Shown one piece after another: positions 5,042 through 21,270 of a stretch of 34,912 nucleotides of DNA (position 1 is the first letter of the stretch; every line of letters starts with the position of its first letter). The notes under the pieces are model-generated. The model saw only the letters and a list, made by a program, of their open reading frames with translations, did no database searches and was not told the DNA's origin. Source of the stretch: Adlercreutzia sp. ZJ473 (lineage in GTDB: Bacteria; Actinomycetota; Coriobacteriia; Coriobacteriales; Eggerthellaceae). The translations under genes and the position numbers were made by a program. Location: positions 1 through 34,912 of the forward strand of contig NZ_JAAVTO010000027.1 of the NCBI RefSeq assembly GCF_013185065.1. Reading direction: 5' to 3'.

Positions 5042-5117
5042 AGGCATTTTTGGGCGCATGGTCGCTGGATACGAAAAAAGCGTCACTTAGCTCGAGGGCC
5101 GTTTTTTGTCTCGTCAA

Positions 5118-5236
5118 AAAGTAGACTTTTTGTCAGGGGAGGGTTATCTTGGTCGAGTTTGAAAAAAGAGCAGGTCGTACGTTTTCGCGCACCGCCTCTT
5201 CAAGTTGGTTTTAGGGTTGGGCAAAAAGTCTACTTT
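5118..5236. repeat. pair of 15-bp inverted repeats upstream of the polysaccharide operon
   Basis: AAAGTAGACTTTTTG at 5118-5132 is the exact reverse complement of CAAAAAGTCTACTTT at 5222-5236, with 89 bases between. Each arm is also nearly self-palindromic (CAAAAAGT..ACTTTTTG). Either the arms flank an invertible promoter, or they are two operator sites about ten helical turns apart. The wider gap 4926-5324 holds no gene; it is AT-rich, and I see only weak candidate promoter hexamers in it. Confidence 0.7.
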
Positions 5237-5324: not shown

Positions 5325-5918
5325 GTGAGCGCCCAGCTTGCGGAGCAGACCGACTTCCTGCCTGCGATTTCGTCAGGGGGGTCGCACGCCGCAGAGGCGA
5401 ACGCGCTCAGGTGGTACGCGGTGCACGTGCGCGAAGGGCATGAGGAGGCCATGGCCGCCAAGTGCGAAAGCGTGCTTGCGCCGGAGGTGGCCGAGAGGTG
5501 CGTCGCCCCGCGCTACGAGAGGTTCCTGCGCCAGCGGGGCACGTGGCGGCTGGTGGTCGACCCCATGTTCCGCGAGTACTTCTTCATCGCCGCGCGCGAC
5601 GCGCGGGCGCTCTCGCGCGCGCTCGGGAGGCTGTCGTTTCCCGTGGCGCTGGCGGGCGGCCGCAAGGGCGCGCACGCGGCTCTTTCCCCGAACGTTCAGG
5701 CATGGCTCAGCTCGGCGCTCGACGCGCAGGGCGTGCTGCGCGCGAGCGAGGGCGTCATCGAGGGCGGCGAGCTCACGGTGACGCGCGGCCCGCTCGCGGG
5801 GCGGGAGCGCTCCATCAAGAGCGTGAACCGCCGCAAGCGCATGGCCTACGTGCGTTTTGACGAGCCGAGCGGCGGCTTCCTGCTGAAGGCCGCGCTCAAC
5901 GTGCCTGAGAAGAGCTGA
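5325..5918 (+). CDS. NusG-family specialised antiterminator (first paralog)
   Basis: About 197 residues with NusG architecture: an N-terminal NGN domain opening with RWYAVHVREGHEEAMAAK (near residues 27-45), a MFREYFFIAA strand where other NusG proteins have PGYxFV, and a C-terminal KOW domain around VTRGPLAGRERSIKSVNRR. NusG paralogs of the LoaP, RfaH and UpxY groups bind elongating RNA polymerase and let it read through terminators in long polysaccharide or antibiotic operons. Its place at the head of such an operon supports that role. It is distinct from the second paralog (different length, little identity by eye), so this is not a recent duplication. The start is uncertain: GTG 5325 has only a weak GGAT-type SD; GTG 5283 and TTG 5205 are also in frame. 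Confidence 0.75.
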   Translation: MSAQLAEQTDFLPAISSGGSHAAEANALRWYAVHVREGHEEAMAAKCESVLAPEVAERCVAPRYERFLRQRGTWRLVVDPMFREYFFIAARDARALSRALGRLSFPVALAGGRKGAHAALSPNVQAWLSSALDAQGVLRASEGVIEGGELTVTRGPLAGRERSIKSVNRRKRMAYVRFDEPSGGFLLKAALNVPEKS

Positions 5919-6221
5919 CGGAGCCCCGGCGAGGCATCTGCCTGGTTGAGGAAACCGCTCGGCTCTCCCGGCGCGCGCCCGCGAGGGCGCGGGGTGGGAA
6001 GCATACCTTGACGCGACGGAGACTGCGCCTGTGGCGAGCTTCGCTTCGGTCAGGGGGATGAATACCTTTTCGTTTCAAGTCGTGCGCAAGGCGACGGGCG
6101 GAGCTGTGCCCGAAGGCTCGTCTGGGGATGTCGCGCGGGGCCGCGGGTCCCGCGGCGGGCCGCATGGCGGGCCTCCGGCCCCCCGGCCTTCCCGCGGCGC
6201 GCGAAGGGAGGAGCCTGCTTT
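5919..6221 (+). promoter_or_regulatory. highly structured spacer between the two NusG paralogs
   Basis: I see no gene in these 303 bases. They contain CGCGCCC-GCGA-GGGCGCG at 5974-5991, a 7-bp stem closed by a GNRA-type tetraloop, and a near-perfect palindrome at 6140-6156 (GCCGCGGG-CCCGCGGC), followed by alternating GGGCC/GGCCC tracts (6157-6200). The ribosome-binding site GGGAGGAG of the second paralog ends the region. A transcript would fold heavily; an attenuation or antiterminator-loading role is plausible but inferred. Confidence 0.45.
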
Positions 6222-6776
6222 ATGCCCAGGTGGTACGTTATCCAGGTGGGCGCCGGCTGCGACGACGTCGTGTGCGAGCGCATGCGCCAGAAGGCGGCCG
6301 AGCTCGAGGGTTCAGGCGCGGTGGCGCCGGGGGCGCTCACGCGGGTGTTCTCGCTGCGCTACGAGACGCAGGCTAAGATCCGGGGTGAGTACCGGCTGGT
6401 GAGGCGCAGGCTCATCCCCGGCTATTTGGTGGCGGTGAGCAGCAAGCCCGAGGACCTCGAGCGCATCCTCCGCACCGTGGGCGAGTTCGCGCGGCTGCTG
6501 AGAAACGAAAAGGGATTCACCCCCCTGAGCGACGACGAGGCGGCGTGGATGGCGGCGTTCACCAAGGAGGGAAAGCGCGCGGTCCCCATGTCCACGGCGG
6601 TCAAGGAGGGCGACGAGGTGGTGGTCACCGACGGCCCGCTTTTGGGGTGCGTGTTCCCGATAAAGCGGATCGACCGCCACCGGAGCACGGCCTGGCTTGA
6701 GGTGACCATCTGCGGAAGAACGAAAGAGATCCCTTTGGGGTTGAAGGTAGTTGCAAGAAGAAGCACTGACAACTGA
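6222..6776 (+). CDS. LoaP-type NusG-family antiterminator (second paralog)
   Basis: The 184-residue protein starts with the canonical WYVIQVGAG strand of the NGN domain, has RRLIPGYLVAV (the PGY strand) near residue 65 and a KOW domain from about residue 125 (VKEGDEVVVTDGPLLGCVFPIKRIDRHR). The layout, size and residues around the KOW match LoaP, which in Firmicutes and Actinobacteria drives processive antitermination of operons for long secondary-metabolite or polysaccharide pathways. A strong GGGAGGAG lies nine bases upstream of the ATG. Only about 200 bases separate it from the first biosynthetic gene, and that interval holds several palindromes, the kind of RNA a LoaP protein would need for loading. 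It probably acts with, or alternates with, the first paralog. Confidence 0.85.
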   Translation: MPRWYVIQVGAGCDDVVCERMRQKAAELEGSGAVAPGALTRVFSLRYETQAKIRGEYRLVRRRLIPGYLVAVSSKPEDLERILRTVGEFARLLRNEKGFTPLSDDEAAWMAAFTKEGKRAVPMSTAVKEGDEVVVTDGPLLGCVFPIKRIDRHRSTAWLEVTICGRTKEIPLGLKVVARRSTDN

Positions 6777-6869: not shown

Positions 6870-6889
6870 GCTGGGTCAATTGACCCAGC
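6870..6889 (+). promoter_or_regulatory. perfect 20-bp palindrome in the operon leader
   Basis: GCTGGGTCA and TGACCCAGC meet in an AATT-centred perfect palindrome, a strong hairpin or dyad operator 90 bases after the second NusG gene. As RNA it is a good candidate for the element that recruits the antiterminator; as DNA it could be a repressor site. Confidence 0.5.
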
Positions 6890-6980: not shown

Positions 6981-8174
6981 TTGCCCGCGTACTGGGATCT
7001 GGCGCTCGTCGCCCTGGCCTCGTTCGCCCTCACCTTCGCATTGGTCCCGGCCTCGATCGCCGTCGCGAAGAGGGTCGGCGCGATAGACGAGCCGGGCGGG
7101 CGGCGCGTCCACGAGGTCGCGACGCCCCGCATGGGCGGGGTCGCGCTCTTCGGCGGGATGACGGGGTCCCTGGCCCTGGCCTGGCTCCTCCACGAGGCCG
7201 GGGCCGCCCCGGGCCTGGGCTTCCCCGACGGCGTCGACGCGGGCCTCGTCGCGCTGTCCGTCGCCGTCGTCTTCCTCGTCGGCGCGGTTGACGACGTCAT
7301 GCAGATCAGGGCGAGGACGAAGCTGCTCGGCCAGGTGGTCGCCGCCTGCGTCGCGGTGCTGGGGGGCGTCCTGCTGACCGGCGTGCACTCCGGGTACGCC
7401 GGGTTCTCCCTCGAGCTCGGGGCGTGGGCGTACCCGGTTACGGCGCTCTACCTGGTCGCCTTCGCGAACATCGTGAACCTCATCGACGGCCTGGACGGGC
7501 TGGCCGCCGGGGTGGCCGCGATCTCGGGGACGGCCCTGCTCGTGCTGTCGTGCCGGCTGGGCATCTGGGCGGCGGCGGCGATGGCGGCCGCCCTGGTCGC
7601 CTCGTGCCTGGCCTTCCTGAGGTTCAACTTCCACCCCGCGAGGCTGTTCATGGGGGACAGCGGCTCGCTCACGCTCGGGTTCGTCCTGGGCCTGGTCTCG
7701 CTGATGGGCGCGGCGGAGGTCTCGAGCGTGACCTCCCTCGTCGCGCCCGTGGTGATCGCCGCGGTCCCCGTCCTCGACACCTTCGCCGCCATCGTCAGGA
7801 GGAGGCGCAGGGGCGTCTCCGTCGGGGCGCCGGACAAGGAGCACATCCACCACCGCCTGCTCAGGCTCGGCTACGGCCAGAGGAGGGTCGTGCTGACCAT
7901 CTACGCGGTGTGCGTCGTGTTCGCCGCCTCGGGCGTGGCGATCGCGGAGGCCCCGCTGGCGGCCAGGGCGGCGGTCCTCGCATTCGACCTCGCGATCGCC
8001 GTCGCCCTCGCCTGGGGGCTCCGCCTCTTCGGGGGCGCCGCGGGCCGCGAGGGCGACGACGGCCCCCGCGGATCCGCGGGGGCGGCGGCTGAGGAGGGCG
8101 CGCCGGGGCGCGGCCCCGGTCCGCTCGGGGACGGCGCCGCGCTTGAAGGGAAAGAGAGCCCTCGTGAGGCATGA
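6981..8174 (+). CDS. WecA/TagO-type undecaprenyl-phosphate sugar-1-phosphate transferase
   Basis: This multi-pass membrane enzyme (397 residues) belongs to the MraY/WecA family. Signature residues are GAVDDVMQI (metal-binding DD) near residue 103, NIVNLIDGLDGLAAG near 163, ARLFMGDSGSL near 224 and EHIHHRLL near 288. It should transfer HexNAc-1-phosphate from its UDP-sugar to undecaprenyl phosphate on the cytoplasmic face, starting each repeat unit; UDP-GlcNAc or the UDP-L-FucNAc made downstream are both possible donors. The last 60 or so residues are Gly/Ala/Pro-rich and charged, longer than in typical WecA. The TTG at 6981 is preferred to ATG 6915 because GGAGG sits seven bases upstream and residue 1 then abuts the first membrane helix. 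Its end overlaps the next gene. Confidence 0.87.
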   Translation: MPAYWDLALVALASFALTFALVPASIAVAKRVGAIDEPGGRRVHEVATPRMGGVALFGGMTGSLALAWLLHEAGAAPGLGFPDGVDAGLVALSVAVVFLVGAVDDVMQIRARTKLLGQVVAACVAVLGGVLLTGVHSGYAGFSLELGAWAYPVTALYLVAFANIVNLIDGLDGLAAGVAAISGTALLVLSCRLGIWAAAAMAAALVASCLAFLRFNFHPARLFMGDSGSLTLGFVLGLVSLMGAAEVSSVTSLVAPVVIAAVPVLDTFAAIVRRRRRGVSVGAPDKEHIHHRLLRLGYGQRRVVLTIYAVCVVFAASGVAIAEAPLAARAAVLAFDLAIAVALAWGLRLFGGAAGREGDDGPRGSAGAAAEEGAPGRGPGPLGDGAALEGKESPREA

Positions 8175-9291
8175 GGGGAAGATACTGGTGGTGGCCAGCG
8201 GCACGGAGTCCCTGAAGTGGCACCGCATGGACATGATGGCCGAGTTCAGGAGGGCCGGCTACGAGGTGGTCGCTTTGGGCGAAGGCAGCGAGGAGGAGTG
8301 GGAGGGCTTCTTCGAGGCCGCCGGCATCCGCTACACCCAGGTCCCCATGTCGGCCAACGGGACGAACCCGGTCCAGGACCTCAGGACGCTCCTGTTCCTG
8401 CGCCGTTTCTACTCCGCCGAGAAACCCGACAAGGTGTTCACCTTCGCGGCGAAGCCCAACATCTACGGGTGCCTGGCGGCTCGCGGGCGCAGGGACGTGG
8501 AGGTCTACTCCATGGTCGCTGGCCTCGGCAACGTCGTCGCGGGTGACTCCCTCAAGGACCGTCTGGTCCAGGCCGTCTTCCTCGCGGAGTATCGCGTGGC
8601 CCTGAAGAGGGCGAAGCGTGTTTTCTTTCAGAACGACGACGACGCCCGGCGCTGCGTTGATCGGCGAATCGCGACGGCAGGGCAGGTCGCTCGCGTGAAC
8701 GGGTCCGGCGTGAACCTCGACCACTTCGCCCGAAGGCCCCTGCCCGAGGGCGTCGGCTTCCTGTTCAGCGGCCGGCTCCTGGAGTCCAAGGGTGTCTTGG
8801 ACTACTGCAGGGCCGCCGAGGTCGTGAAGGGCGCCCATCCGGAGGTGACGTTCACGGTCGTGGGGCCGTTCCACTCGAACCCCACCGCCCTGAAGGCCGG
8901 GGACCTCAGGCCCTACGTCGAGTCCGGCGTCATCACGTACGAGGGCCCGCAGGACGACGTCCGCCCCTTCCTCGAGAAGTGCAGCGCGTTCGTCCTGCCC
9001 TCCTACTACGGGGAGGGAACCCCCAAGGGATGCCTCGAGGCCATGGCCGTCGGGAGGGCGGTCATCACGACCGACTCGGTGGGCTGCCGCGAGGTGGTGC
9101 GCGACGGCGGGAACGGCTTCCTCGTGCCGCCGAGGGACCCCGAGGCCATCGCCGAAGCGATGATTAGACTTATTGACGACCCGGCGCTCGCAGCGCGCAT
9201 GGGCGAGGAGAGCCGGCGTATGGCCGAGGAGCTCTTCGACGTGCGCAAGGTGAACGACGTGATCTGCGAGACGATGGGGATAAACAGGTGA
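8164..9291 (+). CDS. GT4 family glycosyltransferase
   Basis: The 375-residue GT-B enzyme has the C-terminal GT4 motif EGTPKGCLEAMAVG near residue 285 (E-x7-E, binding the donor nucleotide sugar) and the GRLLESKGVLDYCRAA donor-domain strand near residue 200. The N-terminal acceptor domain opens with GKILVVASGTESLKWHRMD. It resembles the second-sugar transferases of capsule and O-antigen clusters (PglA/WbpX-like), which add a residue to the undecaprenyl-linked primer at the membrane. The substrate is not readable from sequence. GTG 8164 overlaps the upstream gene's stop by 11 bases; TTG 8143 is an in-frame alternative. It ends in a 4-base GTGA overlap with the next gene, indicating translational coupling. 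Confidence 0.85.
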   Translation: MRHEGKILVVASGTESLKWHRMDMMAEFRRAGYEVVALGEGSEEEWEGFFEAAGIRYTQVPMSANGTNPVQDLRTLLFLRRFYSAEKPDKVFTFAAKPNIYGCLAARGRRDVEVYSMVAGLGNVVAGDSLKDRLVQAVFLAEYRVALKRAKRVFFQNDDDARRCVDRRIATAGQVARVNGSGVNLDHFARRPLPEGVGFLFSGRLLESKGVLDYCRAAEVVKGAHPEVTFTVVGPFHSNPTALKAGDLRPYVESGVITYEGPQDDVRPFLEKCSAFVLPSYYGEGTPKGCLEAMAVGRAVITTDSVGCREVVRDGGNGFLVPPRDPEAIAEAMIRLIDDPALAARMGEESRRMAEELFDVRKVNDVICETMGINR

Positions 9292-10610
9292 ACGATTGCG
9301 AGAAGACTGTTGAATCGGTGCGGGAAGTGTCGTCCTCCGAGGCGCTTGTATCGGCGACGGGTGCGTCGCTGTCGCAGAAAGCGCGGTCGAGGGAGAAGGG
9401 CTGTCTGGAACCGCCTGCTTGCAGCGGAGGAATGCAGAGTTCCTCGCTGCGCATAGAGGCCAACGCAAAGGATGACGGGCCGGTGAGGATCCTCCATGCC
9501 ATAGGAAGCCTCAACATCGGCGGCTCCCAAGCCTTCGCTATGAACCTTTACCGCAACATCGACCGCTCGCAGGTTCAGTTCGACTTCGTCATCGAGCATC
9601 CTGGCGAGCTCTACTACAAGGACGAGGTAGAATCTCTCGGCGGTCGCGTCTTTGAGCTCCGACCCTTCCGAGGGACGAATCTCGTTGCCTATCGGCGGCA
9701 ATGGCGTGAGCTGTTGGACGAACATCCGGAATGGCGCGTATTGCACAGCCATGTGCGCAGCACGGCGTCACTGTACTTCCCTATAGCGAGGCAAAGGGGA
9801 ATCGCGGCCGTCATACACAGCCATAGCACCGCCGAGGCCCCTGGCTTCAGTGGTGTGGTAAAAAGAATCTTTGAGCTGCCCTTGCGAAGGCAGGCAGACT
9901 ACTATTTTGCTTGCTCTGGCAAAGCGGGTGAATTTCTCTACGGGAAGAAGCTCGCTGCCTCGGATAGGCTGGTCGTTGTTGCCAACGCGATAGACGTCGA
10001 GAGCTTTCGATTCGACAGCCAAGTTCGCGCTGATGTGAGAGATGAGCTTCACATATCGGACGATGCCTTTGTCGTGGGCCATGTCGGCAGGTTCGTCGAG
10101 CAGAAGAACCACCCATTTGTCATCGACGTATTCTGCGAGATCCTGAAGCTGGTTCCATCCGCCAAGCTCGTGTTGGCTGGGGACGGGCCTCTGTTTGGCG
10201 GCGTTAAGCAATTGGCAGCTGAGCGTGGCGTCGAAGGCTCCGTCCTGTTCCTCGGGGCAAGGTCAGATGTGAGCAGGCTGTACCAGGCGATGGACGTCTT
10301 CCTGTTCCCGTCTTTGAACGAGGGGTTGGGCATCTCGCTCGTGGAGGCGCAGGCCTCAGGGCTTCCCTGCGTCTATTCAAGGGCCGTTCCCGAAGACGCT
10401 TGTGCTGTCGTGCCTCTCTGTCGAAGCCTTGGCCTCAATGATCGTCCTAAGATTTGGGCCGAGGTCTGCTGCGCAGTCCATGCGGAAGACCGCCGTTCAT
10501 CGGCTGACGAGGTCATTGAAGCTGGTTTTGACCTGCGTTCTACCTCATCGATGCTTCAGGACTTCTACTACAGGCTCGGCAACGGGCATGAAGCAGGTAT
10601 CAACGGATAA
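9288..10610 (+). CDS. GT4 family glycosyltransferase with unusual N-terminal extension
   Basis: Up to 440 residues. The canonical GT-B start VRILHAIGSLNIGGSQ comes at residue 66, and the donor-site motif NEGLGISLVEAQASG (E-x7-E) near residue 345. EpsF-like enzymes of this type extend exopolysaccharide repeats. The first 65 residues are Ser/Ala/Glu-rich with no clear domain, so the true start may be ATG 9432 or GTG 9483 (AAAGGA about ten bases upstream); GTG 9288 is kept because it forms the GTGA overlap with the previous stop. Base composition drops here compared with the genes on both sides, suggesting separate acquisition. The C-terminal 60 residues lack the usual GT4 tail helix pattern. 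Confidence 0.8.
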   Translation: MNDCEKTVESVREVSSSEALVSATGASLSQKARSREKGCLEPPACSGGMQSSSLRIEANAKDDGPVRILHAIGSLNIGGSQAFAMNLYRNIDRSQVQFDFVIEHPGELYYKDEVESLGGRVFELRPFRGTNLVAYRRQWRELLDEHPEWRVLHSHVRSTASLYFPIARQRGIAAVIHSHSTAEAPGFSGVVKRIFELPLRRQADYYFACSGKAGEFLYGKKLAASDRLVVVANAIDVESFRFDSQVRADVRDELHISDDAFVVGHVGRFVEQKNHPFVIDVFCEILKLVPSAKLVLAGDGPLFGGVKQLAAERGVEGSVLFLGARSDVSRLYQAMDVFLFPSLNEGLGISLVEAQASGLPCVYSRAVPEDACAVVPLCRSLGLNDRPKIWAEVCCAVHAEDRRSSADEVIEAGFDLRSTSSMLQDFYYRLGNGHEAGING

Positions 10611-10615
10611 CGGCA

Positions 10616-11683
10616 ATGAAAGGGCGAGCTTTGATTTCATTCTTCGGTAAAACCCTGATGATCACGGGCGGCACGGGGAGCTTCGGCTCAACCGTGCTCA
10701 GGCACTTCCTGGGCTCGGACGTGGGCGAGATCCGCATCTTCTCCCGCGACGAGAAGAAGCAGGATGACATGAGGCACCGCCTGCAGAGGGTTGACTCCGA
10801 GGCGGCCCGCAGGGTGCGCTTCCACATAGGCGACGTGCGCGACCCGCAGTCGGTGCGCGACGCCATGCGGGGCGTGGACTACGTGTTCCACGCCGCGGCC
10901 TTGAAGCAGGTTCCCTCATGCGAGTTCTTCCCCATGGAGGCGGTGCGCACCAACGTCATAGGCACGGACAACGTGCTGCACGCCGCGATCGCCGAGGGAG
11001 TGGAGCGCGTGGTGTGCCTGTCCACCGACAAGGCGGCCTACCCCATAAACGCCATGGGCAAGTCCAAGGCCATGATGGAGTCGGTTATCTACGCGAACGC
11101 CCGCAACGGCGCCGAGGCGGGCACGACCGTGTGCTGCACCCGCTACGGCAACGTCATGTGCTCGCGCGGAAGCGTCATCCCGCTGTTCATCAAGCAGATA
11201 AAGGCGGGCGATCCCGTGACCGTCACGGACCCCTCCATGACGCGCTTCCTCATGAACCTGGACGAGGCGGTGGACCTGGTCTGCTTCGCCTTCGAGCACG
11301 CGAACCCGGGCGACCTCTTCGTCCAGAAGGCCCCGGCATCGACCGTGGGCGACCTCGCCGAGGCCGTCCAGGAGCTCTTCGGCTGCACGGGAACGCGCGT
11401 CATCGGCACCCGCCACGGCGAGAAGCTCTACGAGACGCTGATGACCTGCGAGGAGCGCCTGCGCGCCGAGGACATGGGCGACTACTTCAGGGTCCATGCA
11501 GACACCCGCGACCTCAACTACGACAAGTTCGTCGCGAAGGGCAAGGTGAGGACCCAGGCGGCAGAGGCCTACACCTCGCATAACACCGAGAGGCTTGATG
11601 TGGCCGGTACGGTAGAAAAGATAAAGACCGCGGAGTACGTCCAGCTTGCCTTGCAGGGTCGCGAGCACGAGGCGGTGCAGTAG
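10616..11683 (+). CDS. capE: UDP-GlcNAc 4,6-dehydratase/5-epimerase (CapE)
   Basis: An extended SDR enzyme of 355 residues: TGGTGSFGS (Rossmann glycine motif) near residue 18, FHAAALKQVP near 92, and LSTDKAAYPINAMGKSK near 140, where Met replaces the usual Tyr of YxxxK, as in CapE of Staphylococcus and related dehydratases. CapE converts UDP-GlcNAc to a UDP-4-keto-6-deoxy-L-arabino-hexosamine, the first step to UDP-N-acetyl-L-fucosamine. The two following genes encode the other two steps in order, which makes this assignment much firmer than the family alone would. ATG 10616 lies five bases after the previous stop; TTG 10631, with AAGGG upstream, would give the shorter N-terminus usual in the family. 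Confidence 0.9.
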   Translation: MKGRALISFFGKTLMITGGTGSFGSTVLRHFLGSDVGEIRIFSRDEKKQDDMRHRLQRVDSEAARRVRFHIGDVRDPQSVRDAMRGVDYVFHAAALKQVPSCEFFPMEAVRTNVIGTDNVLHAAIAEGVERVVCLSTDKAAYPINAMGKSKAMMESVIYANARNGAEAGTTVCCTRYGNVMCSRGSVIPLFIKQIKAGDPVTVTDPSMTRFLMNLDEAVDLVCFAFEHANPGDLFVQKAPASTVGDLAEAVQELFGCTGTRVIGTRHGEKLYETLMTCEERLRAEDMGDYFRVHADTRDLNYDKFVAKGKVRTQAAEAYTSHNTERLDVAGTVEKIKTAEYVQLALQGREHEAVQ

Positions 11684-11684
11684 C

Positions 11685-12881
11685 ATGAGGATCCTCGTCA
11701 CCGGCGCGAAGGGCATGGTCGGCACGGCGCTCTGCAACAACCTGCGCAATCTGCGCGACGGCAAGGACCGCACCCGGCCCAACTTGAGGATCGACGAGGT
11801 CTTCGAATATGACCTGGACTCGACGCCGGAAGATCTCAAAAGGTACTGCCGGAAAGCTGACTTCGTGTTCAACCTGGCCGGCGTGAACCGCCCCGAGGAC
11901 CCGGCCGACTTCATGGCTGGCAATTTCGGGTTCGCCGGCGAGCTGCTCGACGAGCTCAGGGCCGCAGGAAGCAAGGCGCCCGTCATGCTTTCCTCCAGCA
12001 TCCAGGCAACCCTGTCTGGCCGTTTCGGGGAGAGCGATTATGGCAAGAGCAAGAGGGCGGGAGAAGAGCTGTTCTTCGACTACGCAAAGGAAACCGGCGC
12101 CAAGGTAGCCGTCTACCGCTTCCCCAACCTCATGGGCCATTCCCGCCCCAACTACAACTCGGCGGTGTCCACCTTCTGCTGGGCTATAGCAAATGACGAG
12201 CCCTTTACGGTAAACGACCCGGGCGTCGAGCTCGAGCTGCTCTACATAGACGACCTGGTGCAGGGCATGCTCGACCTCCTGGAGGGGAAGGAACAACGCT
12301 GCGAGTACGAGGGCGCCGAGGCGGTCCCGACTGACGACGGGCGCTACTGCCACGTGCCGGTGACCCACAAGGTGACGCTGGGGCGCATCGTCGAGCTGCT
12401 CCAGGAGCTCAAGTCCCAGCCCGAGACGCTCATGATGCCGTCCATGCCGGAGGGCTCCTTCGAGAAGAAGCTCTGCTCACTCTACTTAACCTACCTTCCG
12501 ACAGATAAGTTCAAGTATCCCTTGCATATGAACATTGACGAGCGTGGGAGCTTCACCGAGCTTATCCATACCCCAGACTGCGGCCAGGTGTCCGTGAACA
12601 TATCCAAGCCCGGCGTCACCAAGGGGCAGCACTGGCACAGCTCGAAGTGGGAGCTCTTCATCGTGGTGTCAGGCCGCGGGCTCATACGCGAGCGCAACGT
12701 CGCCACCGGCGAGACGGTCGAGTTCGAGGTCTCGGGCGACAGGGTCGAGGCCGTGCGCATGGTCCCCGGCTGGACCCACAGCATCACCAACCTCTCCGAC
12801 GCCGAGGACCTGGTCACGGTCATGGCCTGCAACGAGGTCTTCGACCCGGCGCGTCCCGACACCTACTTCGAGGAGGTCTAG
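11685..12881 (+). CDS. capF: CapF-like reductase/epimerase with cupin domain
   Basis: A bifunctional protein of 398 residues. The N-terminal SDR domain has TGAKGMVG at residues 6-13 and the active-site YGKSK near residue 122. The C-terminal half (from about 280) is a cupin: GVTKGQHWHSSKWELFIVVSG carries the His/Glu metal ligands. In the known pathway the cupin domain epimerises C3 and the SDR domain reduces the 4-keto group with NADPH, giving UDP-N-acetyl-6-deoxy-L-talosamine for CapG. The gene starts one base after the CapE stop and ends four bases before capG. Codon use and GC match capE and capG, so the trio travels as one high-GC block. Confidence 0.9.
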   Translation: MRILVTGAKGMVGTALCNNLRNLRDGKDRTRPNLRIDEVFEYDLDSTPEDLKRYCRKADFVFNLAGVNRPEDPADFMAGNFGFAGELLDELRAAGSKAPVMLSSSIQATLSGRFGESDYGKSKRAGEELFFDYAKETGAKVAVYRFPNLMGHSRPNYNSAVSTFCWAIANDEPFTVNDPGVELELLYIDDLVQGMLDLLEGKEQRCEYEGAEAVPTDDGRYCHVPVTHKVTLGRIVELLQELKSQPETLMMPSMPEGSFEKKLCSLYLTYLPTDKFKYPLHMNIDERGSFTELIHTPDCGQVSVNISKPGVTKGQHWHSSKWELFIVVSGRGLIRERNVATGETVEFEVSGDRVEAVRMVPGWTHSITNLSDAEDLVTVMACNEVFDPARPDTYFEEV

Positions 12882-12885
12882 GATC

Positions 12886-14055
12886 ATGGGCTACGACGCC
12901 AAGTTCAAGAACGACGGCAGGCTCAAGCTGCTCATCATCGTGGGCACGCGCCCCGAGGTCATCCGCCTGTCCGAGGTGATCAAGAAGTGCCGCAGGTACT
13001 TCGACTGCCTGCTCGCTCACACGGGGCAGAACTACGACTACGTCTTGAACGGCGTGTTCTTCCATGACCTGGAGCTGGGGGAACCCGACGTGTACCTCGA
13101 CGCCGTGGGAGCAGACCTCGGCGAGACCGTGGGCAACGTCATCGCCAGAAGCTACCAGTTGATGGTGGAGGTGAAGCCCGATGCCGTGCTGGTCTTAGGC
13201 GACACTAACAGCTGCCTGTCGGTCATCGGGGCCAAGAGGCTCCACATCCCCATCTTCCACATGGAGGCGGGAAACCGCTGCAAGGACGAGTGCCTGCCCG
13301 AGGAGACGAACCGGAGGATCGTCGACGTGATCTCGGACGTGAACCTCGCCTACTCCGAGCACGCGAGGCGCTACCTGAGGGAGACGGGCTGTGCCCCCGA
13401 GCGCACCTACGTGACCGGCTCCCCCATGGCCGAGGTGCTGCACAGGAACCTGGGCAAGATCAACGCGAGCGACGTCCACGCGAGGCTGGACCTCGAGAGG
13501 GGCGAGTACATCCTGCTCAGCGCCCACCGCGAGGAGAACATCGACACGCCCGCCAACTTCGAGAGCCTGTTCGGCGCCGCGAACAAGATGGCCGAGAGGT
13601 ACGACATGCCGGTCCTCTACTCCTGCCACCCCAGGAGCCGAAGGCGCCTGGAGGAGTCCGGCTTCGAGCTCGACCCCCGCGTGCGCATGCACGAGCCGCT
13701 CGGGTTCCACGACTACAACTGCCTGCAAGTCAACGCCTTCTGCGTGGTCTCCGACTCGGGGACGCTCCCCGAGGAGTCCGCCTTCTTCGCGAGCGTCGGG
13801 CAGCCCTTCCCGGCGGTGTGCATCCGGACCTCCACCGAGCGCCCCGAGGCGCTCGACAAGGCGTGCTTCGTGCTCTCGGGCATCGACGAGAGGGGCCTCC
13901 TTCAGGCGGTCGAGCTCGCCGTTGCCATGGAGCGCGACGGACTGCATGCCGCCTTGGTCCCCGACTACGCCGACGAGGGCGTCTCCGACAGGGTGGTCAA
14001 GATCATCCAGTCCTACGCGGGCGTGGTGGACAAGATGGTGTGGAGGAAGGGCTGA
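12886..14055 (+). CDS. capG: non-hydrolysing UDP-HexNAc 2-epimerase, UDP-L-FucNAc forming (CapG)
   Basis: A WecB-like fold of 389 residues: IIVGTRPEVIRLS near residue 17, HTGQNYD near 45, HMEAGNRCKDECLPEETNR near 125 (substrate-binding loops), LLSAHREENID near 205 and VSDSGTLPEES near 287 (UDP-binding). CapG inverts C2 of UDP-N-acetyl-6-deoxy-L-talosamine to give UDP-N-acetyl-L-fucosamine. WecB/MnaA (UDP-GlcNAc 2-epimerase) is the alternative in isolation, but directly following capE and capF makes CapG much more likely. It marks the right end of a high-GC block: the next gene, 12 bases on, has a very different composition. Confidence 0.9.
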   Translation: MGYDAKFKNDGRLKLLIIVGTRPEVIRLSEVIKKCRRYFDCLLAHTGQNYDYVLNGVFFHDLELGEPDVYLDAVGADLGETVGNVIARSYQLMVEVKPDAVLVLGDTNSCLSVIGAKRLHIPIFHMEAGNRCKDECLPEETNRRIVDVISDVNLAYSEHARRYLRETGCAPERTYVTGSPMAEVLHRNLGKINASDVHARLDLERGEYILLSAHREENIDTPANFESLFGAANKMAERYDMPVLYSCHPRSRRRLEESGFELDPRVRMHEPLGFHDYNCLQVNAFCVVSDSGTLPEESAFFASVGQPFPAVCIRTSTERPEALDKACFVLSGIDERGLLQAVELAVAMERDGLHAALVPDYADEGVSDRVVKIIQSYAGVVDKMVWRKG

Positions 14056-14067
14056 GATGATGCCACT

Positions 14068-14856
14068 ATGGCGGAAATGCTGAAAAGCTGGAGAAATCCC
14101 GTACAACTAGAGTCTCGAAAGTTTGAGCACATTGTATCTCTGGGTTATTTCTGCAGTGTTGCGCTTGAGCTGGAACGTTTTGGCCTGAGAGACACAAGTG
14201 GTCCTTTTGACTGGGTCATATCCCCGTGGTGGGGGGTGTGCCAGCTAATGAATGATGGCTTTAGCGATCTGTTCATGCCAGATCTCTTCGAGCAAGATCC
14301 GACTATCCCCGAACATTACAGGAATGCGAAGTACGGGATTGCTTTCTACCATGACTTCGATCGGTGGAGGCCTTTTGGCGATCAACTGCCTATGGTTCGC
14401 GACAAGTACGTTCGGCGCATAGAGCGTTTCTACGAGAACGCTCTTGAGCCTACTCTGTTCGTTAGATATGTACGGGATGAAGCGGAGTTGGATAATTTGA
14501 CATACACTCTTCCTGGAATCATGGGGATACTAAGGGGCTTCAATCGTGATAGCGATATTATGCTCGTTGGCAATCGGAGCGATCTTGGCTCGGGTCGAAT
14601 CGATTTCTCCTTCGATCCAGACCGGGGTGATGTCGTTGCGCGGAGGTTTCTGGACAACGACCCATTACTTGCCGAGAAGTTAGTCGCAAGCTATCCTTGC
14701 CTCAAAAGGAAATCGAACATTGCTCGTTACGCAGCTAAAGAGGCTGCCAAGCGTAAAGAACCGGCGATGCGGCTATTCAAGCTCGTAGGTCACAGAGCGA
14801 AGAAATCACTCGTTCGCCCATACGTGCATTCGCTGGTTGCAGGGGAGGCCTTCTAG
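14068..14856 (+). CDS. DUF1796 putative cysteine peptidase-like protein
   Basis: The 262-residue protein has the DUF1796 signature near its N-terminus: VSLGYFCSVALELERFGLR, with Cys29 the proposed nucleophile, followed by GPFDWVIS. His95 (FYHDF) and nearby acidic residues could complete a papain-like triad. The family is described as papain-like from sequence only, and its substrates are unknown. No signal peptide or membrane segment is evident, so it is probably cytoplasmic. Such proteins often sit in polysaccharide or glycosyltransferase clusters, where a transferase or polymer-modifying role is as likely as peptide cleavage. This gene opens the AT-richer block of the operon. The start may instead be ATG 14077. 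Confidence 0.7.
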   Translation: MAEMLKSWRNPVQLESRKFEHIVSLGYFCSVALELERFGLRDTSGPFDWVISPWWGVCQLMNDGFSDLFMPDLFEQDPTIPEHYRNAKYGIAFYHDFDRWRPFGDQLPMVRDKYVRRIERFYENALEPTLFVRYVRDEAELDNLTYTLPGIMGILRGFNRDSDIMLVGNRSDLGSGRIDFSFDPDRGDVVARRFLDNDPLLAEKLVASYPCLKRKSNIARYAAKEAAKRKEPAMRLFKLVGHRAKKSLVRPYVHSLVAGEAF

Positions 14857-14857
14857 C

Positions 14858-16126
14858 ATGCTGCCCTTGGCATCCTCATCTGCAGCGACTCGTTCAATGC
14901 GCTTGCGCATCTTCTCTGAGGTGCACGTCACCGCTTCTTTTCTTTTTTGCGGTTTGCTCGTGCTCTACCCGATTCTCAATCGCTACTCTTCACCCGTTCC
15001 TCAACTAACCCTATCAGAATTTCTTCTTCTCGGCTTCTTTCTGCACGCGTTACTTTCTAGGAAGCTTTTGGGCGTAAAACCCATCTGGAGTGCGCTTGTA
15101 TTCTCGTTGTATCTCGTTTTGCATTCATTTCTGGATGCTGCGAACCTAAGCGGGGCTCTTGAAAGCGATGCCATATGGAGCGCCTGCAGAGTCGCCTACA
15201 TTTACACAGGTATTGCCATCTTCGCACCACTGTATTTCGACGAGAGAGTCGCCACTCGCTGGCTTAACGTCGTTTCTGTCTTCGTAGCCTCTTACGGCCT
15301 CTTGCAAATCGCTTTCAGCTATGCTGGCATTGTTCTTACGAGCTATATACCGTTTCTTCCTGTCATTGGCGATAACCTGGACTTGGCTCTGGAAGCAAAA
15401 ATGTCATACGGGTTGAGGTTTCGCTGCCAATCGCTTCTCAACGAGCCAGCGGCTCTTTGCTGCTATCTCCTCTTGCCTGTCGCCCTGAGCCTCTTCAAAA
15501 GAGGAAGTCAATCTCCGAACTATAAGCTTGCCTCATTCCTTTCGGTTGTGGCTCTGGCGTCAGCCTCTTCTACTGGTTTAATTTGCGTGGCCATTCTCTG
15601 GATTTCTCACTTTCTCGTTCGCCTTTGGATGGATCGCAAGAACGGGGGGTGGCTAATCGTAGCATTTGCTGCGCTGTGCATTATCGGTGTCGGTACAGTC
15701 GTTGTGTCGGGGCTCTGGGATTATTTTGTTATGAGGGTGTTCGGTGGTAGCGGCCTCACTGTATCTGGATTGTCGCGAAGCACTCGCTTTTACGCCTTCA
15801 AGGATACCTTTGGGGCGAGTGAAACCATCTATGGCATTCTATTCGGTGAGGGGATGTATCAAACGACGAATTATCTTCCAGGGTTCTTCCGCCTCTATCT
15901 CTCTCTTGGTTTAGTTGGGCTGACAATCATGGTGGTGCTTCTCGCAACGCGACTGCATTGCGGTAACCATGAGACAAGGGCTTGCACCCTCCTCTTTATC
16001 GTGCTCAATGTCGGCACCGAAATTCTCTTAGGTAACTTCGCTTTTTACTACTTGGCTTTTATATTAGGTATGGAGGTTGGGGGGAATGGGCTATCCTATT
16101 CGATCTCTTCGCAAGACCATCCGTAA
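14858..16126 (+). CDS. O-antigen/exopolysaccharide polymerase (Wzy-like)
   Basis: The 422-residue protein is almost entirely hydrophobic, with about ten to eleven predicted membrane helices and a larger extracytoplasmic loop before the [16 protein letters not shown] helix, the topology of Wzy polymerases and O-antigen ligases. Within the loop, [15 protein letters not shown] and [12 protein letters not shown] resemble the Wzy_C/PF04932-type regions by position. It would join lipid-linked repeat units at the outer face of the membrane. ATG 14858 starts one base after the previous stop, with GGGGAGG nine bases upstream. Wzy proteins diverge fast, so the assignment rests on topology plus neighbouring flippase, transferases and initiating enzyme. 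Confidence 0.75.
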
Positions 16127-16799
16127 CGCTGCATATCTGATGAGAGCGAACACTCGAAAAACCGTTGATGTCCCGCTCTCATCAGATATTCGCGGAGCAA
16201 GTCTTGATGACTACGTTAGCGTGGGGAAGAGATGCTTTCTGATTGGAAGCAGGATTGGAGCTCACTCCTATTGTGGCGATGACTGCTCCCTGCCTAGAGT
16301 TGACATCGGCCCCTTCTGCTCTTTAGCAGGAAACGTTATGCTTGCGGCTGGGAATCACCCTCTCCACTCTGTGAGCACCTCGCCAGCGCTCTATCGCCCA
16401 GAGGGCATGGCTGGGGATGAACTGGTGAGCGAATGCACTTTTGGCGAAGAATTCTTCTACGTGGACAAAGACGAGAAGTTCTATGGGGTCATCGGAGCTG
16501 ACTGCTGGGTTGCAACGGGAGCTATTCTGGTCGTACGCAGGGGTGGCTTAAAACTCGGAACAGGATCTGTTGTTGCGGCTGGAGCTGTTGTAACGCGTGA
16601 TACCCCTCCTTACTCCATTGTCGCCGGCAATCCTGCGAGAGTCATCAAGTACCGCTTCGAAGAGGAAACCATCAACAGGCTTCTCGCCTCAAGATGGTGG
16701 GAGAAGGGCGATTCTTGGATAAGGGAGCACGAAAGAGCCTTTATCAGTCCTGATGCTCTTCTAGACGGGGATTTGCATGGTCGCATCAAAGCTCAATAA
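16086..16799 (+). CDS. left-handed beta-helix acyltransferase (CatB/XAT-like)
   Basis: A 237-residue hexapeptide-repeat acyltransferase. Repeats begin near residue 40 ([21 protein letters not shown]), and the putative catalytic His lies in [10 protein letters not shown] near residue 95. [20 protein letters not shown] and [31 protein letters not shown] (near 135-190) are the classic XAT-family C-terminal coils, followed by a helix with WW residues. It probably O-acetylates a sugar of the repeat unit from acetyl-CoA in the cytoplasm. ATG 16086 lies inside the end of the polymerase gene (41-base overlap), with GGAGG nine bases upstream, and the gene overlaps the flippase by 23 bases. Such tight overlaps imply co-translation. 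Confidence 0.85.
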
Positions 16800-18138
16800 C
16801 GTATTTCGCATGCGTTTTTCCAACGCTGAAAACAGGCGGCTATTGATTAATGTTGCGGGGAGCTATGCCATTAAGGGTGGAAGCATGATAGTAGCCTTGC
16901 TTGTCATGCCTGCCTACCTCGCCTATTTTAACTCGCAAGAGGTGCTTGGCGTTTGGTTTGCAATGGTTGCGCTGCTCAACTGGGTTCTGCTCTTTGATTT
17001 TGGCATAGGTGGTGGCTTGCGAAACCAAATCATCGAGCCCATAGTCGAGGAGGATCATAAGAGCCTCGCAAAGCTTCTCGTGTCCGGGTACTATTCGGTC
17101 ATCGCCATCATTGTCGCTCTCTCTCTGCTCGCTTGGCCCATAGTCAACGTGATTAACTGGAATTTCTTGCTCAACGTTGACGAAGCTGTCATATCAGCTG
17201 GGACGCTCAGCCTTGTTGCTTACATCCTGTTGCTAGGCATTTTCCTACGCCTATTGTCCGTGATGGTTAGCCATATTCTCTATGCCCTTCAGGATGCCGT
17301 AACCCCCAGCGCCCTCATCCTCCTCTCCAATATCTTGATTTTGCTTTACATGCTCGTTGCGAAAGGAAATAATGGCGAGGATGGGCTTGTCGCCTTAGCT
17401 GTTGCAACCTCTTTTACAAACAACCTTCCTGGGCTTGTTGCAACCTTCGTCGTGTTTCGCAGGAGATTTCCAAGCGTAAGGCTGCTTCCTAGGTATTTTG
17501 ACCTTGCTATAGCATGCTCGATCATGGGGAAGGGCGGACAGCTCTTCTACCTTCAGCTCCTGCTTGCCTTCGTCTTTAATTCGAAAGAGATTCTGATCTC
17601 CTTTTTCGTTGATCCTGCGCAGGTTGTTGACTACCAGGTCTATTACAAGACCTTGGGAATCGTAGGCGGCCTTTTTGCTCTCGCTCTCACTCCCATTTGG
17701 TCTGCTGCGACAAAGGCTATCGTCGAGGGGCGTTTCTCTCGCATAAAAAAGCTCTACAGGGCTGGCGTCCTCGCGGTTTTTGCTGTTGGCATCTGCCAAC
17801 TCGTCCTCGTGCCCATCATGCCGTTGTTTGTAAGCATCTGGATTGGCAATGATGTTGTCGAGGTATCGCCATTCTATAGCCTAGTGTTTTGCGTCTACAA
17901 TGTTCTCTATATGTGGATCATGCTCAACTACAATTTCGCCTGCGGCCTACAGGAGACAAGTGCAGCTGCGGCATCCCTTACCTTGGCCTCTTTTCTCAGC
18001 GTCGCGCTCGTTTGGGCGGGGAGCGGGCAGTTTAGCACCTGGGTCTTGGTCATAGCCTCAACCGCAATCTCGGTCATTCCCGCTTGTGTGGCTATGCCCA
18101 AGCAGGTTATTGGGGACATCAGACGTTTGTCAAGATAA
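16777..18138 (+). CDS. Wzx-type lipid-linked oligosaccharide flippase
   Basis: This 453-residue protein has about twelve to fourteen hydrophobic helices and the MOP-superfamily look of Wzx: an N-terminal [29 protein letters not shown] helix pair with a conserved Gly-rich loop ([16 protein letters not shown]) near residue 70, then central TM bundles and a C-terminal half with a second GxG-rich loop. It would move undecaprenyl-diphosphate-linked repeat units across the cytoplasmic membrane for Wzy. Its neighbours include the polymerase and acyltransferases, all AT-richer than the rest of the operon. The gene is followed by the only gap of about 90 bases within the core cluster. Wzx paralogs are diverse and substrate is unpredictable. 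Confidence 0.85.
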
Positions 18139-18229
18139 GCTTAAACAATGCTAAACTTGGTGCATCGGAATTTCTCGATTCGTCTCCTGCGCCTCTCCTT
18201 AATCGTTTTCATTGTCAGGGGTGTTTTGC

Positions 18230-19525
18230 ATGAGAGTCCTTTTTCTGACCGATAAGTACTATCCCCGCCCGTTCGCCAACGCTGTCTGCGCTCAAAACGT
18301 GGCTCGCTCTTTTGTCGAGGCGGGACACGAAGCCGACGTGATTGCGTTCGACGATCCCTTTGAGAGCCTTCCAAGCGAGCTTGATGGCGTCAGGGTGTAC
18401 GGCGTGCGTCCCGACGAGCGACTTAAGCTATTCTATTTCGCCTCTGATCTTCCGGGCGACAGAAAAGCAAAGGTAGCCATGGCGGCTTTTCGCTTTCTTA
18501 ACTTCGCGAGTCGTCTTTCAAACTGGATGAGATATCCCCTAGCGTCAAAAGCTCTCTCGCAGCGCGTAGCTAACCTCGCAATATGCCTCCACCACGTGAA
18601 GCCCTACGACTGCATCGTAGCCACTTGCTGTCCAGTAGAGTGCATCGAGGCGGCTGTGAGAGTGCGTGCTTGTCTTCCTGGCATTCCTCTATTCGCTTAT
18701 TGCGTTGACTATATCCCTAATACTCTCAGGAGACACATCTCCAAGGAGAAACAGGCTTCTGCTTCCGAATACTGGGTTGACCGCATCGGACGTAATTTCG
18801 ATCACGTCATCGGCATGGCTTTTGAGGAAGGATGGTATAGGTCATCGTATGCTGCTGCCCCGAGGGCTCAGGTCCTAATAAGTGATCTCCCTTTGCTTTC
18901 GAAGGCCCCCGCGGCAACCGATTCTGTTACCACAGCCTCTGGTGACTGGGTTTACGCGGGCTCGCTCAGCAGGGAGCACTACAATCCAATTCCAGCTATG
19001 GAAACCTTCTTTTGGCTGAGCGCGCACGGCATCATCGGATCCGCAACTTTCCACATCGTTGGCAGAGGCGACCTTGCTCGGCTCTGCAAAGAGTGGGAGG
19101 CTAGAACCGGGGGTGCTATTCAATTCCATGACTACATGGCACACAGTGAGTTGGAAAAGATGTATGAGAACGCAAGCGTGCTCGTCAGCATGAAGTGCAG
19201 CGATCAGATCTCCGCAAAGGTGTTCGAGTACATGGCGCAGGAGAAGCCCCTGCTCCACTTTTCTGGGCACTTGGAAGATCCTGATCGGCAATATGTTGAC
19301 CGATACAGATTGGGGTTGACCGTGGATGTGCTTGAAGGTGGGCCAGAGGCGTGGGGCTCACAGGTTACAGAGTGGCTTTCGATTATAGATGACCTCTCTC
19401 TGCCTCCTGGCTGGACATCTGAATTCGAGAAAAACAGACCTTCGTATACGAGAGACCTCATTCTCTCTCGTATCAACACTAACCCATGTGGCTTTTGGTC
19501 GGGGGCTTCTCATGTCGTTTCATAG
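18230..19525 (+). CDS. GT4-like glycosyltransferase
   Basis: A 431-residue GT-B transferase starting MRVLFLTDKYYPRPFANAVC, the standard acceptor-domain strand. The C-terminal donor domain carries VSMKCSDQISAKVFEYMAQEKP near residue 325, the WbuB/GT4-type variant in which ISAKVFEYMA occupies the E-x7-E region with only the second acidic residue clear. That missing first Glu means the sugar-binding site differs from the two GT4 enzymes upstream. ATG 18230 has AGGGG nine bases upstream. The gene follows a 91-base gap (18139-18229) in which I see no terminator, and ends in a 14-base overlap with the next gene. Donor and acceptor are unknown. Confidence 0.8.
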   Translation: MRVLFLTDKYYPRPFANAVCAQNVARSFVEAGHEADVIAFDDPFESLPSELDGVRVYGVRPDERLKLFYFASDLPGDRKAKVAMAAFRFLNFASRLSNWMRYPLASKALSQRVANLAICLHHVKPYDCIVATCCPVECIEAAVRVRACLPGIPLFAYCVDYIPNTLRRHISKEKQASASEYWVDRIGRNFDHVIGMAFEEGWYRSSYAAAPRAQVLISDLPLLSKAPAATDSVTTASGDWVYAGSLSREHYNPIPAMETFFWLSAHGIIGSATFHIVGRGDLARLCKEWEARTGGAIQFHDYMAHSELEKMYENASVLVSMKCSDQISAKVFEYMAQEKPLLHFSGHLEDPDRQYVDRYRLGLTVDVLEGGPEAWGSQVTEWLSIIDDLSLPPGWTSEFEKNRPSYTRDLILSRINTNPCGFWSGASHVVS

Positions 19526-20042
19526 CGCTTATAGAAAGATCTCAAAACTGCTTGAATACATTCGGGGAGGGGTTGTTGGATTGGCTCATGAGGGTGGCAG
19601 GCGGCTTCGCGTTGGAAGAGGCGCGGCAATTGAAGCTGCAGACGTTGTCTTCGGGGACGATGTTTGCATAGGTCGCAATGTTCATATCTTCGGCGGGGGG
19701 CACGTGGAGATTGGCGACAGAACGATCATAGGTGACTGTTCTGTGATTTGCGCGGCAGAAAACGTCAGCATAGGCAAAGAAACCATGATAGCTGCTCACT
19801 GTAAGATCTATGATTCTAACCATGGCATGCATCTTGGTACGCCGATGAGACAGCAGACTCTCTCCATCCGGCCGGTTGCGGTTGGTAGTGATTGCTGGCT
19901 TGGCGCGGGTGTCACGCTTCTAGCTGGAGCAGCGGTTCAGGATGGATCCGTTGTTGGCGCAGGTACTGTTTTGGAGGGCATCGCTCGCGAGAATATGATC
20001 GTCTTTCAGCAACGCGTCATCGATACGGTCGCAAGAAGATAA
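19512..20042 (+). CDS. WcaF/LacA-like hexapeptide acetyltransferase
   Basis: The 176-residue protein is made of hexapeptide repeats from about residue 40 (VVFGDDVCIGRNVHIFGGGHVEIGDRTIIGD), with the catalytic His in KIYDSNHGMH near residue 105 and closing coils VGSDCWLGAGVTLLAGAAVQDGSVVGAGTV near 130-155. This matches sugar O-acetyltransferases such as WcaF and the maltose/galactoside acetyltransferases. With the acyltransferase at 16086, the cluster encodes two separate acyltransferases, so the polymer may carry two acetyl positions. The ATG is inside the preceding GT gene (14-base overlap). The AT-richer block ends near the 3' end of this gene. Confidence 0.83.
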   Translation: MSFHSAYRKISKLLEYIRGGVVGLAHEGGRRLRVGRGAAIEAADVVFGDDVCIGRNVHIFGGGHVEIGDRTIIGDCSVICAAENVSIGKETMIAAHCKIYDSNHGMHLGTPMRQQTLSIRPVAVGSDCWLGAGVTLLAGAAVQDGSVVGAGTVLEGIARENMIVFQQRVIDTVARR

Positions 20043-20070
20043 GCACTTGATACAGATGCGGAGTGTTCCT

Positions 20071-21186: not shown

Positions 21187-21193
21187 GCATGGG

Positions 21194-21238: not shown

Positions 21239-21270
21239 CTGATTTGCATGATAGCACGGCACTAGATGCA

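Follow-up and report, generated by a model that had tools for sequence, protein, structure and literature searches.

Two dissimilar NusG paralogs in series, with a covarying RNA element and a putative invertible promoter, at the head of a capsule-type operon of Adlercreutzia

LoaP of Bacillus velezensis, a NusG paralog encoded beside the long biosynthetic dfn and mln operons, needs a leader RNA hairpin, according to the accessible part of its description (PMC12691694). In Bacteroides fragilis, eight capsule loci carry a NusG paralog, UpxY, together with the adjacent UpxZ (PMC7593976, available in part). The RfaH/ops system presents another example of an operon-specific NusG paralog serving capsule-type operons. 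Bacteroides capsule operons are further characterized by invertible promoters, and UpxZ itself is not known to be a NusG paralog. In Eggerthella lenta, megabase inversions reposition capsule genes relative to loaP and have been linked to phage resistance, as stated in the accessible portions of a 2026 preprint (PMC13174815). Here we describe a locus of Adlercreutzia sp. ZJ473 in which two NusG-type genes, A and B, follow one another at the head of a polysaccharide gene cluster. On balance we favour, with some reserve, the view that the locus comprises two autonomous antitermination modules stacked in series on one capsule-type operon.

The analysed stretch of DNA, 34,912 nucleotides and called the window below, is one contig (C37) of the 2.63-Mb genome of Adlercreutzia sp. 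ZJ473, family Eggerthellaceae. Its features relevant to the two genes are the following.

5115..5132, no strand: left inverted repeat of the putative invertible promoter, CAAAAAGTAGACTTTTTG; 15-bp exact inverted match of 5118-5132 to 5222-5236; proposed -35 hexamer TAGACT at 5122-5127 (by eye)
5133..5221, + strand: invertible segment, 89 bp; proposed -10 hexamer TATCTT at 5145-5150 (by eye); faces gene A in this assembly (read as ON, by eye)
5222..5236, no strand: right inverted repeat, CAAAAAGTCTACTTT, from the inverted-repeat scan
5325..5918, + strand: gene A, NusG paralog of A1 type; GTG start uncertain, NGN-KOW from about 5403
5999..6071, + strand: covarying RNA element in the A-B spacer; stem CAU.ACCUUGA / UCAGGG..AUG; inner hairpin GCGCC UGU GGCG; conserved 3' flank GAUGAAUACC
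6222..6776, + strand: gene B, NusG paralog of LoaP type, by the NCBIfam LoaP score (103.5 bits, below cut-off), trees and the Foldseek match 8f5g
6870..6889, no strand: perfect palindrome of 20 bp, GCTGGGTCAATTGACCCAGC; proposed site of exchange between capsule cassette and regulatory head
6981..23135, + strand: polysaccharide gene cluster, by Pfam; start of its first gene uncertain (open reading frame from 6915); single transcript assumed

Gene A occupies the open reading frame 5205-5918 on the + strand; since the longer frame would include the right promoter-repeat arm (5222-5236), GTG at 5325 was chosen as its start. By Pfam, the downstream cluster contains a GT4 (WecA-like) glycosyltransferase, other glycosyltransferases, Polysacc_synt_2, epimerases, hexapeptide transferases and UDP-glucose/GDP-mannose dehydrogenase. 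Pfam matches were absent for two of the 14 scanned proteins downstream of gene B, and the rest are largely products of polysaccharide genes. A preliminary description of this DNA, made from its letters alone, had placed the two genes in tandem at the head of a polysaccharide operon, and the Pfam matches, which extend to about 23 kb, agree with it.

Both genes are nearest to LoaP. Among NCBIfam models, LoaP (NF033641) was the top one for A (91.6 bits) as well as for B, while UpxY (NF033644, cut-off 100 bits) gave 15.4 bits for A and 23.4 bits for B, and housekeeping NusG (TIGR00922, cut-off 135.7 bits) gave 49.3 bits for B and no reported match for A; neither gene qualifies for either of these two models. 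The housekeeping NusG of the genome is a separate gene (C30:93743-94258, 209.6 bits), and the possibility that A or B is the housekeeping copy was rejected. Grouping with housekeeping NusG, which the preliminary description had named as an outcome speaking against its reading, is thus not seen for A or B by profile score. One further gene of the same genome, on contig C64, clears the LoaP cut-off with 161.7 bits.

A and B are homologous yet dissimilar, with 28% identity in BLASTP (E 5e-12). AlphaFold2 modelled an NGN domain and a beta KOW domain in A (pLDDT 80.9, pTM 0.74) and, at moderate confidence, in B (pLDDT 67.7, pTM 0.59). The top Foldseek match of both models was 8f5g (E 2.6e-14 for A, 1.2e-13 for B), whose database title reads NusG-RNA complex and which we take to be a LoaP complex. 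The predicted fold of both proteins is LoaP-like, that is, NGN plus beta-barrel KOW, with moderate confidence in the case of B, and the two dissimilar NGN-KOW paralogs of the preliminary description were recovered in this way. A recent tandem duplication was rejected, given the low identity and the position of A in a clade of its own, designated A1; a pseudogene in the window was rejected too, both reading frames being open. In the main A1 subclade the P of the FPGY motif is lost (the window gene A has FREY). The basic strip of the KOW domain (RHKR-like) and the aromatic residue and Y of FPGY are retained in most A1 rows of the alignment, and a VPxKS-like C-terminal tail is common to many. Thirteen candidate stretches of viral contigs were examined for relatives of gene B, and none was related.

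The locus resembles that of B. velezensis LoaP in its best profile and structural match and in the presence of a NusG paralog beside a long biosynthetic operon. It differs in that A and B score below the LoaP cut-off, two paralogs stand in series, inverted repeats accompany the promoter, and the product is polysaccharide, not polyketide; moreover, the RNA element described below has a longer stem and a short apical loop, whereas the dfn hairpin is of UNCG type. With the UpxY/UpxZ heads of Bacteroides it shares the combination of a NusG paralog and an adjoining second regulatory gene in capsule operons, but here the second gene is itself a NusG paralog, both proteins are far below the UpxY cut-off, and phylum and repeat sequence are different. 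Unlike RfaH, neither predicted model has an alpha-helical C-terminal domain, and the RfaH profile gave 17 bits for B and no reported match for A. No account of tandem LoaP or A1-like genes was found among the top-ranked results in open-licence literature, in line with the preliminary description, which knew of no well-described LoaP pair.

Tandem arrangement is not peculiar to the window. LoaP-like genes are present at five loci of the Adlercreutzia sp. ZJ473 genome, one single (C64) and four doublets. In the C22 doublet the first gene is only an A1 remnant with an internal deletion (L022, about 8680-8979) ahead of an intact LoaP, and the first gene of the C50 doublet belongs to another class, M, instead of A1. 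In the family as a whole, at least 38 of 138 genomes have LoaP profile matches over the cut-off, among the matches listed. An A-type alignment profile searched against these 138 genomes gave 37 rows of at least 165 bits, of which 35 were re-scored (two near-copies, G051:2573319 and G053:C45, stayed outside the re-scoring, and weaker rows were only partly fetched). Of the 35 rows, 9 are general LoaPs and the other 26 are A1-type genes, which come from 13 genomes in 8 genera. At these 26 loci, two of which lie at contig ends, A1 is always the first gene and never the second. At 22 of the 24 assessable loci A1 is succeeded, no more than 436 bp away and in the same direction, by a second LoaP-like gene that is intact, three of these second genes being of class M (L141, L142, L152); the two exceptions are L077, where the second gene is truncated, and L157, where A1 directly precedes a sugar transferase. 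Co-occurrence of the pair in relatives, which had been suggested as a check, is recurrent; as for broken genes, most relatives are intact, while the C22 remnant and the truncated B of L077 are damaged.

All 8 fetched loci with a second type of first gene, A2, have a LoaP-type gene behind it, but this sample is biased, as A2 loci were reached only via regions chosen for holding pairs or via LoaP matches. With A1-first and A2-first loci taken together, pairs occur in at least 10 of 48 family genera, and the earlier assertion that specialised NusG paralogs normally occur singly per operon fails in this family. The A2 leaders (L056, L060-L063, L071, L072) carry upstream runs of about 6 to 10 G, whose length slippage could vary. 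Triple arrays, A1-M-LoaP, are present at L146 and L151, where M is a third class of NusG paralogs starting with MWFAINV; L047 represents another kind of tandem.

In a first tree (75 rows, without L022_A, L077_B and L080_A), first genes fall mainly into two strong clades and second genes into several. In a second tree (83 rows, with other families added and most near-copies left out), A1 forms one side of a branch with 33 rows, supported by 100/96 and by 100% of 200 bootstrap trees, and adjoins a single-LoaP group; gene B of the window groups with the second genes of L068, L069 and L073 (98/87). Placement of the long NusG branch is unreliable in these trees, and no root is claimed. The LoaP pair of the preliminary description is therefore no duplicated pair: A belongs to the separate A1 clade with inverted repeats, B is a LoaP with an RNA element.

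A1 extends beyond the family. In the class, 57 of 396 genomes from three families match the A-type alignment at E<=1e-40, general LoaPs included, and 20 A1 loci were fetched from two other families, among the matches listed. One of the 20 lies at a contig end; 16 of the remaining 19 have no second LoaP-like gene and three have one. The RNA element had no match at E<=0.1 in any of the 20. A1 is thus found without a second LoaP-like gene or an element match, and therefore does not need B. Sugar-transferase or capsule-like genes were seen by eye downstream of A1 at the three loci inspected (L193, L202, L206).

At the putative promoter of gene A, two inverted arms stand 89 bp apart, a repeat pair scoring 15 against a maximum of 11 in 30 shuffles. 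The hexamers TAGACT, in the left arm, and TATCTT, in the segment, are spaced by 17 nt, the same spacing as between TACACT and TATACT in C52 and between TAGACT and GATAAT in L077 (all by eye). Inverted repeats with a GTA(G/C)AC core were found at 20 of the 26 family A1 loci, at 16 of them beyond all 30 shuffles, and repeat arms scoring at least 13 at 13 of the 20 A1 loci outside the family. A repeat of the same type is carried by C50, whose first gene is of class M, and the GTA(G/C)AC-core repeat was found at none of 29 single-LoaP loci scanned.

Relative to the window, the segment is inverted at two orthologous loci of Adlercreutzia sp. ZJ176 (L099 and L100, the closest ones) and also in L074 and L065; in C52 (L021) it has the orientation of the window. 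In another family it points one way in L193, L194, L195, L199 and L200 and the opposite way in L197, L198, L201 and L203. Both orientations at this locus are observed between related genomes, not within one strain. A gene for a serine recombinase of the Resolvase family (Pfam, 109-116 bits) lies directly upstream of A1 in L101 (Gordonibacter sp. 28C), L157, L205 and L206, and none was seen adjoining the promoter of the window. The ZJ473 genome does encode such a recombinase at C67:13568-14167 (Resolvase family, 117.6 bits), 67% identical to the one adjoining A1 in L101, and this gene is the candidate cognate invertase for the window promoter. Beside it (L188, about 1500-2600), the promoter-type site is present twice by pattern and in a third, reversed copy by eye, with the segment assembled both ways in tandem; a mixed population, or a misassembly arising from one, would explain this. 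Inverted repeats upstream of A, as well as covariation of the spacer element, had been overlooked in the preliminary description.

The spacer element, 73 nt long, has an outer helix P1, made up of CAU, an internal loop and CCUUGA paired with UCAGGG..AUG, followed by the inner hairpin; its 3' flank GAUGAAUA is conserved. The apical loop of the window copy is not UNCG, its fold has -27.6 kcal/mol (z -2.69; 1 of 200 shuffles as stable), and two Rfam searches gave no match at 5999-6071. RNAalifold on a MAFFT alignment of 17 elements returned no structure, apparently with the variable stem misaligned; the structure was obtained by folding single sequences and aligning eight close ones. The window element scores 71.6 bits with model R1 and 63.9 bits with model R2, and is itself among the 8 sequences building R1 and the 42 building R2. 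Both sides vary in 9 of the 18 pairs of the 8-sequence alignment, in which 93.1% of cells are paired compared with 37-55% after sliding. Among the 42 matches (40 distinct), aligned by fitting to the model, 13 of 18 pairs change on both sides, with 74 such cells compared with 20.6 in shuffles, and 87.3% are paired compared with 30-51% after sliding. The structured spacer proposed in the preliminary description is supported.

Position of the element is tied to LoaP genes. The 48 matches examined from 60 loci searched are all directly upstream of the second gene of a pair or of a single LoaP, LoaP alone with the element being present at many single loci. In the family-wide search R2 found 62 matches in 33 of 138 genomes, 61 of which precede a LoaP-type gene: 59 have a listed LoaP-type gene 23-568 bp downstream on their own strand, and two precede damaged LoaPs (the truncated gene of L077 and a LoaP interrupted by Ns). 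The last match heads a sugar-transferase (capsule) operon; the 4.5 kb fetched there contain no LoaP match, and the genome has LoaP elsewhere. A target acted upon in trans would look like this copy. Class-wide, the element is present in 45 of 396 genomes at E<=1e-6. Stricter filters were applied in the family-wide and class-wide searches, with weak matches lost, and weak model matches elsewhere were treated as chance, for example L072:2213-2292 (R2 16.2 bits, E 0.12), about 0.7 kb upstream of an A2 gene. Two elements are present in L048.

Sequence distances between loci were compared for the element and its two neighbours. Over 38 loci, the distance of the element tracks that of the LoaP just downstream (r 0.66). 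At 11 pair loci the partial correlation of the element with B is 0.60 when A is controlled for (p 0.0002), and that with A is 0.33 when B is controlled for (p 0.056); the A set of these calculations excludes L022, and for L047 the gene behind its element was used. The nearest relatives of the three window parts also differ: those of A are L064 and L066 (Gordonibacter-type), that of the element is L068, and those of B are L069 and L068 (Rubneribacter-type). All this supports, without proving, that the element goes with B rather than with A. At 8 of 31 single loci (L036, L037, L038, L041, L043, L044, L046, L078), the 3' strand of the element has an alternative partner downstream with which it can make a terminator of -28.6 to -36.3 kcal/mol, beyond all 20 shuffles, whose T run starts about 54-63 nt past the element. 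Those placed in the first tree sit in a clade adjoining A1. By this predicted pairing, the element can be part of an attenuator at some loci.

Behind gene B, the palindrome marks a further boundary. Its 16-bp core TGGGTCAATTGACCCA has six sites in the ZJ473 genome at one mismatch or less, compared with none for the reversed control. Each of the five LoaP loci (window, C64, C52, C22, C50) has one site, 77-327 bp past its LoaP match. The sixth, on C39, precedes a sugar-transferase gene without LoaP and adjoins a tyrosine recombinase gene; the latter (L029:1824-2852, Phage_integrase, 93.3 bits) is divergent from both the palindrome and this sugar-transferase gene. Among the 138 family genomes, the palindrome is confined to two of the three genomes of the window's genus and one mismatched site in G080. 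For ZJ473 and G028, a second genome of the genus, the 500 bp before and the 700 bp after each palindrome were compared, and pairs scoring over 35 were reported. Alike heads stand in front of different operons in C52/Z_C17 (331 before, 15 after) and C50/Z_C2 (320 and 15), and alike operons stand behind different heads in C39/Z_C2 (9 and 364) and Z_C11/Z_C17 (13 and 468). One pair, C64 and C39, agrees before as well as after the site (73 and 298), and only weak matches were obtained for the junction in the window. We read the palindrome as a junction of cassette exchange at which heads and operons would reassort by recombination in this genus. The role of a target hairpin for LoaP was rejected as its main explanation, the palindrome being confined to two genomes of the genus apart from the G080 site, located after LoaP and coincident with the breaks between heads and operons.

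A comparable position is known from E. lenta. The 16-bp repeat that bounds 2-Mb inversions, as given in the accessible portions of PMC13174815, lies 107-122 bp past the LoaP match in G051-G054, of one genus taken as Eggerthella, and G052 has an oppositely oriented copy 2.06 Mb away. A repeat positioned after LoaP is common to that system and to the present one, and its sequence differs. A term search of the accessible portions of the same preprint found no tandem NusG genes, no local invertible promoter at loaP and no RNA element.

The favoured reading can be put as follows. The first module would consist of the invertible promoter and gene A, of the A1 clade. With the promoter facing it, A would be made first; starting at its own leader, it would then travel with RNA polymerase, as operon-specific NusG paralogs do elsewhere. 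The second module would consist of the structured RNA element and gene B, a LoaP. While the transcript is being made, B would bind the element, which lies just ahead of gene B, and make polymerase continue through B and the operon of about 16 kb. The relay would thus lead from promoter state to A, then to the element with B, and finally to the distal genes. The genes and their separate clades, the covarying element and its position ahead of LoaP genes, the inverted repeats and the two orientations among related genomes are observed; that the segment works as a promoter, that RNA is bound, that termination is overcome, in which order the parts act and that the switch operates here is what we infer. 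Sequential action fits the gene order promoter, A, element, B, operon.

Several observations weigh against this reading. Both A and B score under the curated LoaP cut-off of 125 bits, and the AlphaFold2 model of B is only modestly confident. Of the element, the models match only 18 of 33 pair or triple loci: in ZJ473 itself three further loci are weak (39.8, 36.8 and 27.9 bits) and C50 has no match, and at L141, L142 and L152 there is no room for an element, another gene following A1 within 12 bp. Seven of the remaining pair or triple loci have a second sequence class of similar plan, which covaries (6 of 13 pairs change on both sides, 89.0% paired compared with 41-58% after sliding), with 74 of 500 shuffles as high in further pair types. 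L149 resembles this second class, and L023, L145, L146 and L151 look by eye like a third one. In the 8-sequence alignment of the main class the number of further pair types is within shuffles (325 of 500 as high). The element sits between A and B, and linkage alone could produce its correlation with B. A competing terminator after the element was found in none of the 13 pair loci tested, though expected. On the side of the promoter, the scan found no GTA(G/C)AC repeat at 6 of 26 family A1 loci (L067, L073, L075, L140, L146, L151; in L073 another scan gave an imperfect repeat), 4 of the 20 family repeats are not beyond shuffles, and 7 of the 20 A1 loci outside the family have no repeat by scan score. 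No inverted repeat was found at the 6 A2 pair loci scanned, though expected, and other repeats beyond shuffles are present at 3 of 29 single loci (L044, L047, L053).

Other explanations attribute different roles to A. It might be an inhibitor, a NusG-like competitor on RNA polymerase or on RNA, acting in trans to damp B or further capsule loci in the way UpxZ affects foreign UpxY in Bacteroides (PMC7593976, available in part). Besides this precedent, genomes with A1 have several LoaP-type genes, and the loss of P from FPGY could alter contact with polymerase. A1 standing alone at the 16 loci of other families would be odd for an inhibitor, and the retained basic strip, aromatic residue and Y also speak against it, so that we find inhibition unlikely; antagonism between A and B in particular is weakened because A1 occurs alone ahead of sugar-transferase or capsule genes in loci of other families. 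The loci with A1 alone also bear on the idea that A and B form an obligate complex loading together on the element. Fixed order and close spacing at 22 of 24 assessable A1 loci would be expected of such a complex, but the solitary A1 genes of other families, the many single loci with just LoaP and the element, and the intact B next to the A1 remnant of C22 leave it very little credit. The broken copies at C22 and L077 would be accounted for if the tandem paralogs were redundant, had no separate roles and one of the two was decaying. This explanation is hardly credible for genes that are both open in the window and in most relatives of 8 genera, with A1 in a clade of its own instead of a recent duplicate of B and with a C-terminal tail common to many of its members.

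The element could also be a leader of LoaP genes acting independently, riboswitch-like or translational, and not the target of LoaP. Its location upstream of LoaP genes is compatible with this, and the alternative pairing of its 3' strand with a terminator at 8 of 31 single loci resembles ligand-gated attenuators. The single copy heading a LoaP-less capsule operon, with LoaP elsewhere in the genome, is at odds with it, as is the covariation of the element with the following LoaP over 38 loci, which linkage could also cause; we hold such a leader to be decidedly improbable.

A more far-reaching scheme can be offered only tentatively. In it, the capsule switch would have three layers: a promoter inverted by a serine invertase deciding on firing, an A1-then-LoaP relay with a new class of leader RNA, and a palindrome swapping cassettes, with A1 as a new functional class of operon-specific NusG proteins bound to invertible promoters in several Coriobacteriia families. 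As far as the accessible portions of PMC13174815 go, the locus adds to the picture of E. lenta a putative local invertible promoter, a second NusG clade travelling with it, and a covarying RNA at the expected loading position of LoaP. From its layout, surface-coat expression looks to be under two successive control steps. Why one operon carries two different NusG-type factors in series thereby becomes testable, and the RNA and protein pair may serve for studying the choice of operons by LoaP-like factors in Actinomycetota.

Two further features of the window lie outside the array itself. Directly upstream of the putative invertible promoter, a gene on the - strand (4560-4937) resembles Phd/YefM antitoxins, with 27.7 bits, below the cut-off of 29.8. 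At 28624-28862 on the + strand there is a match to raiA RNA (Rfam RF03072) of 146.7 bits, the gathering score being 101.3.

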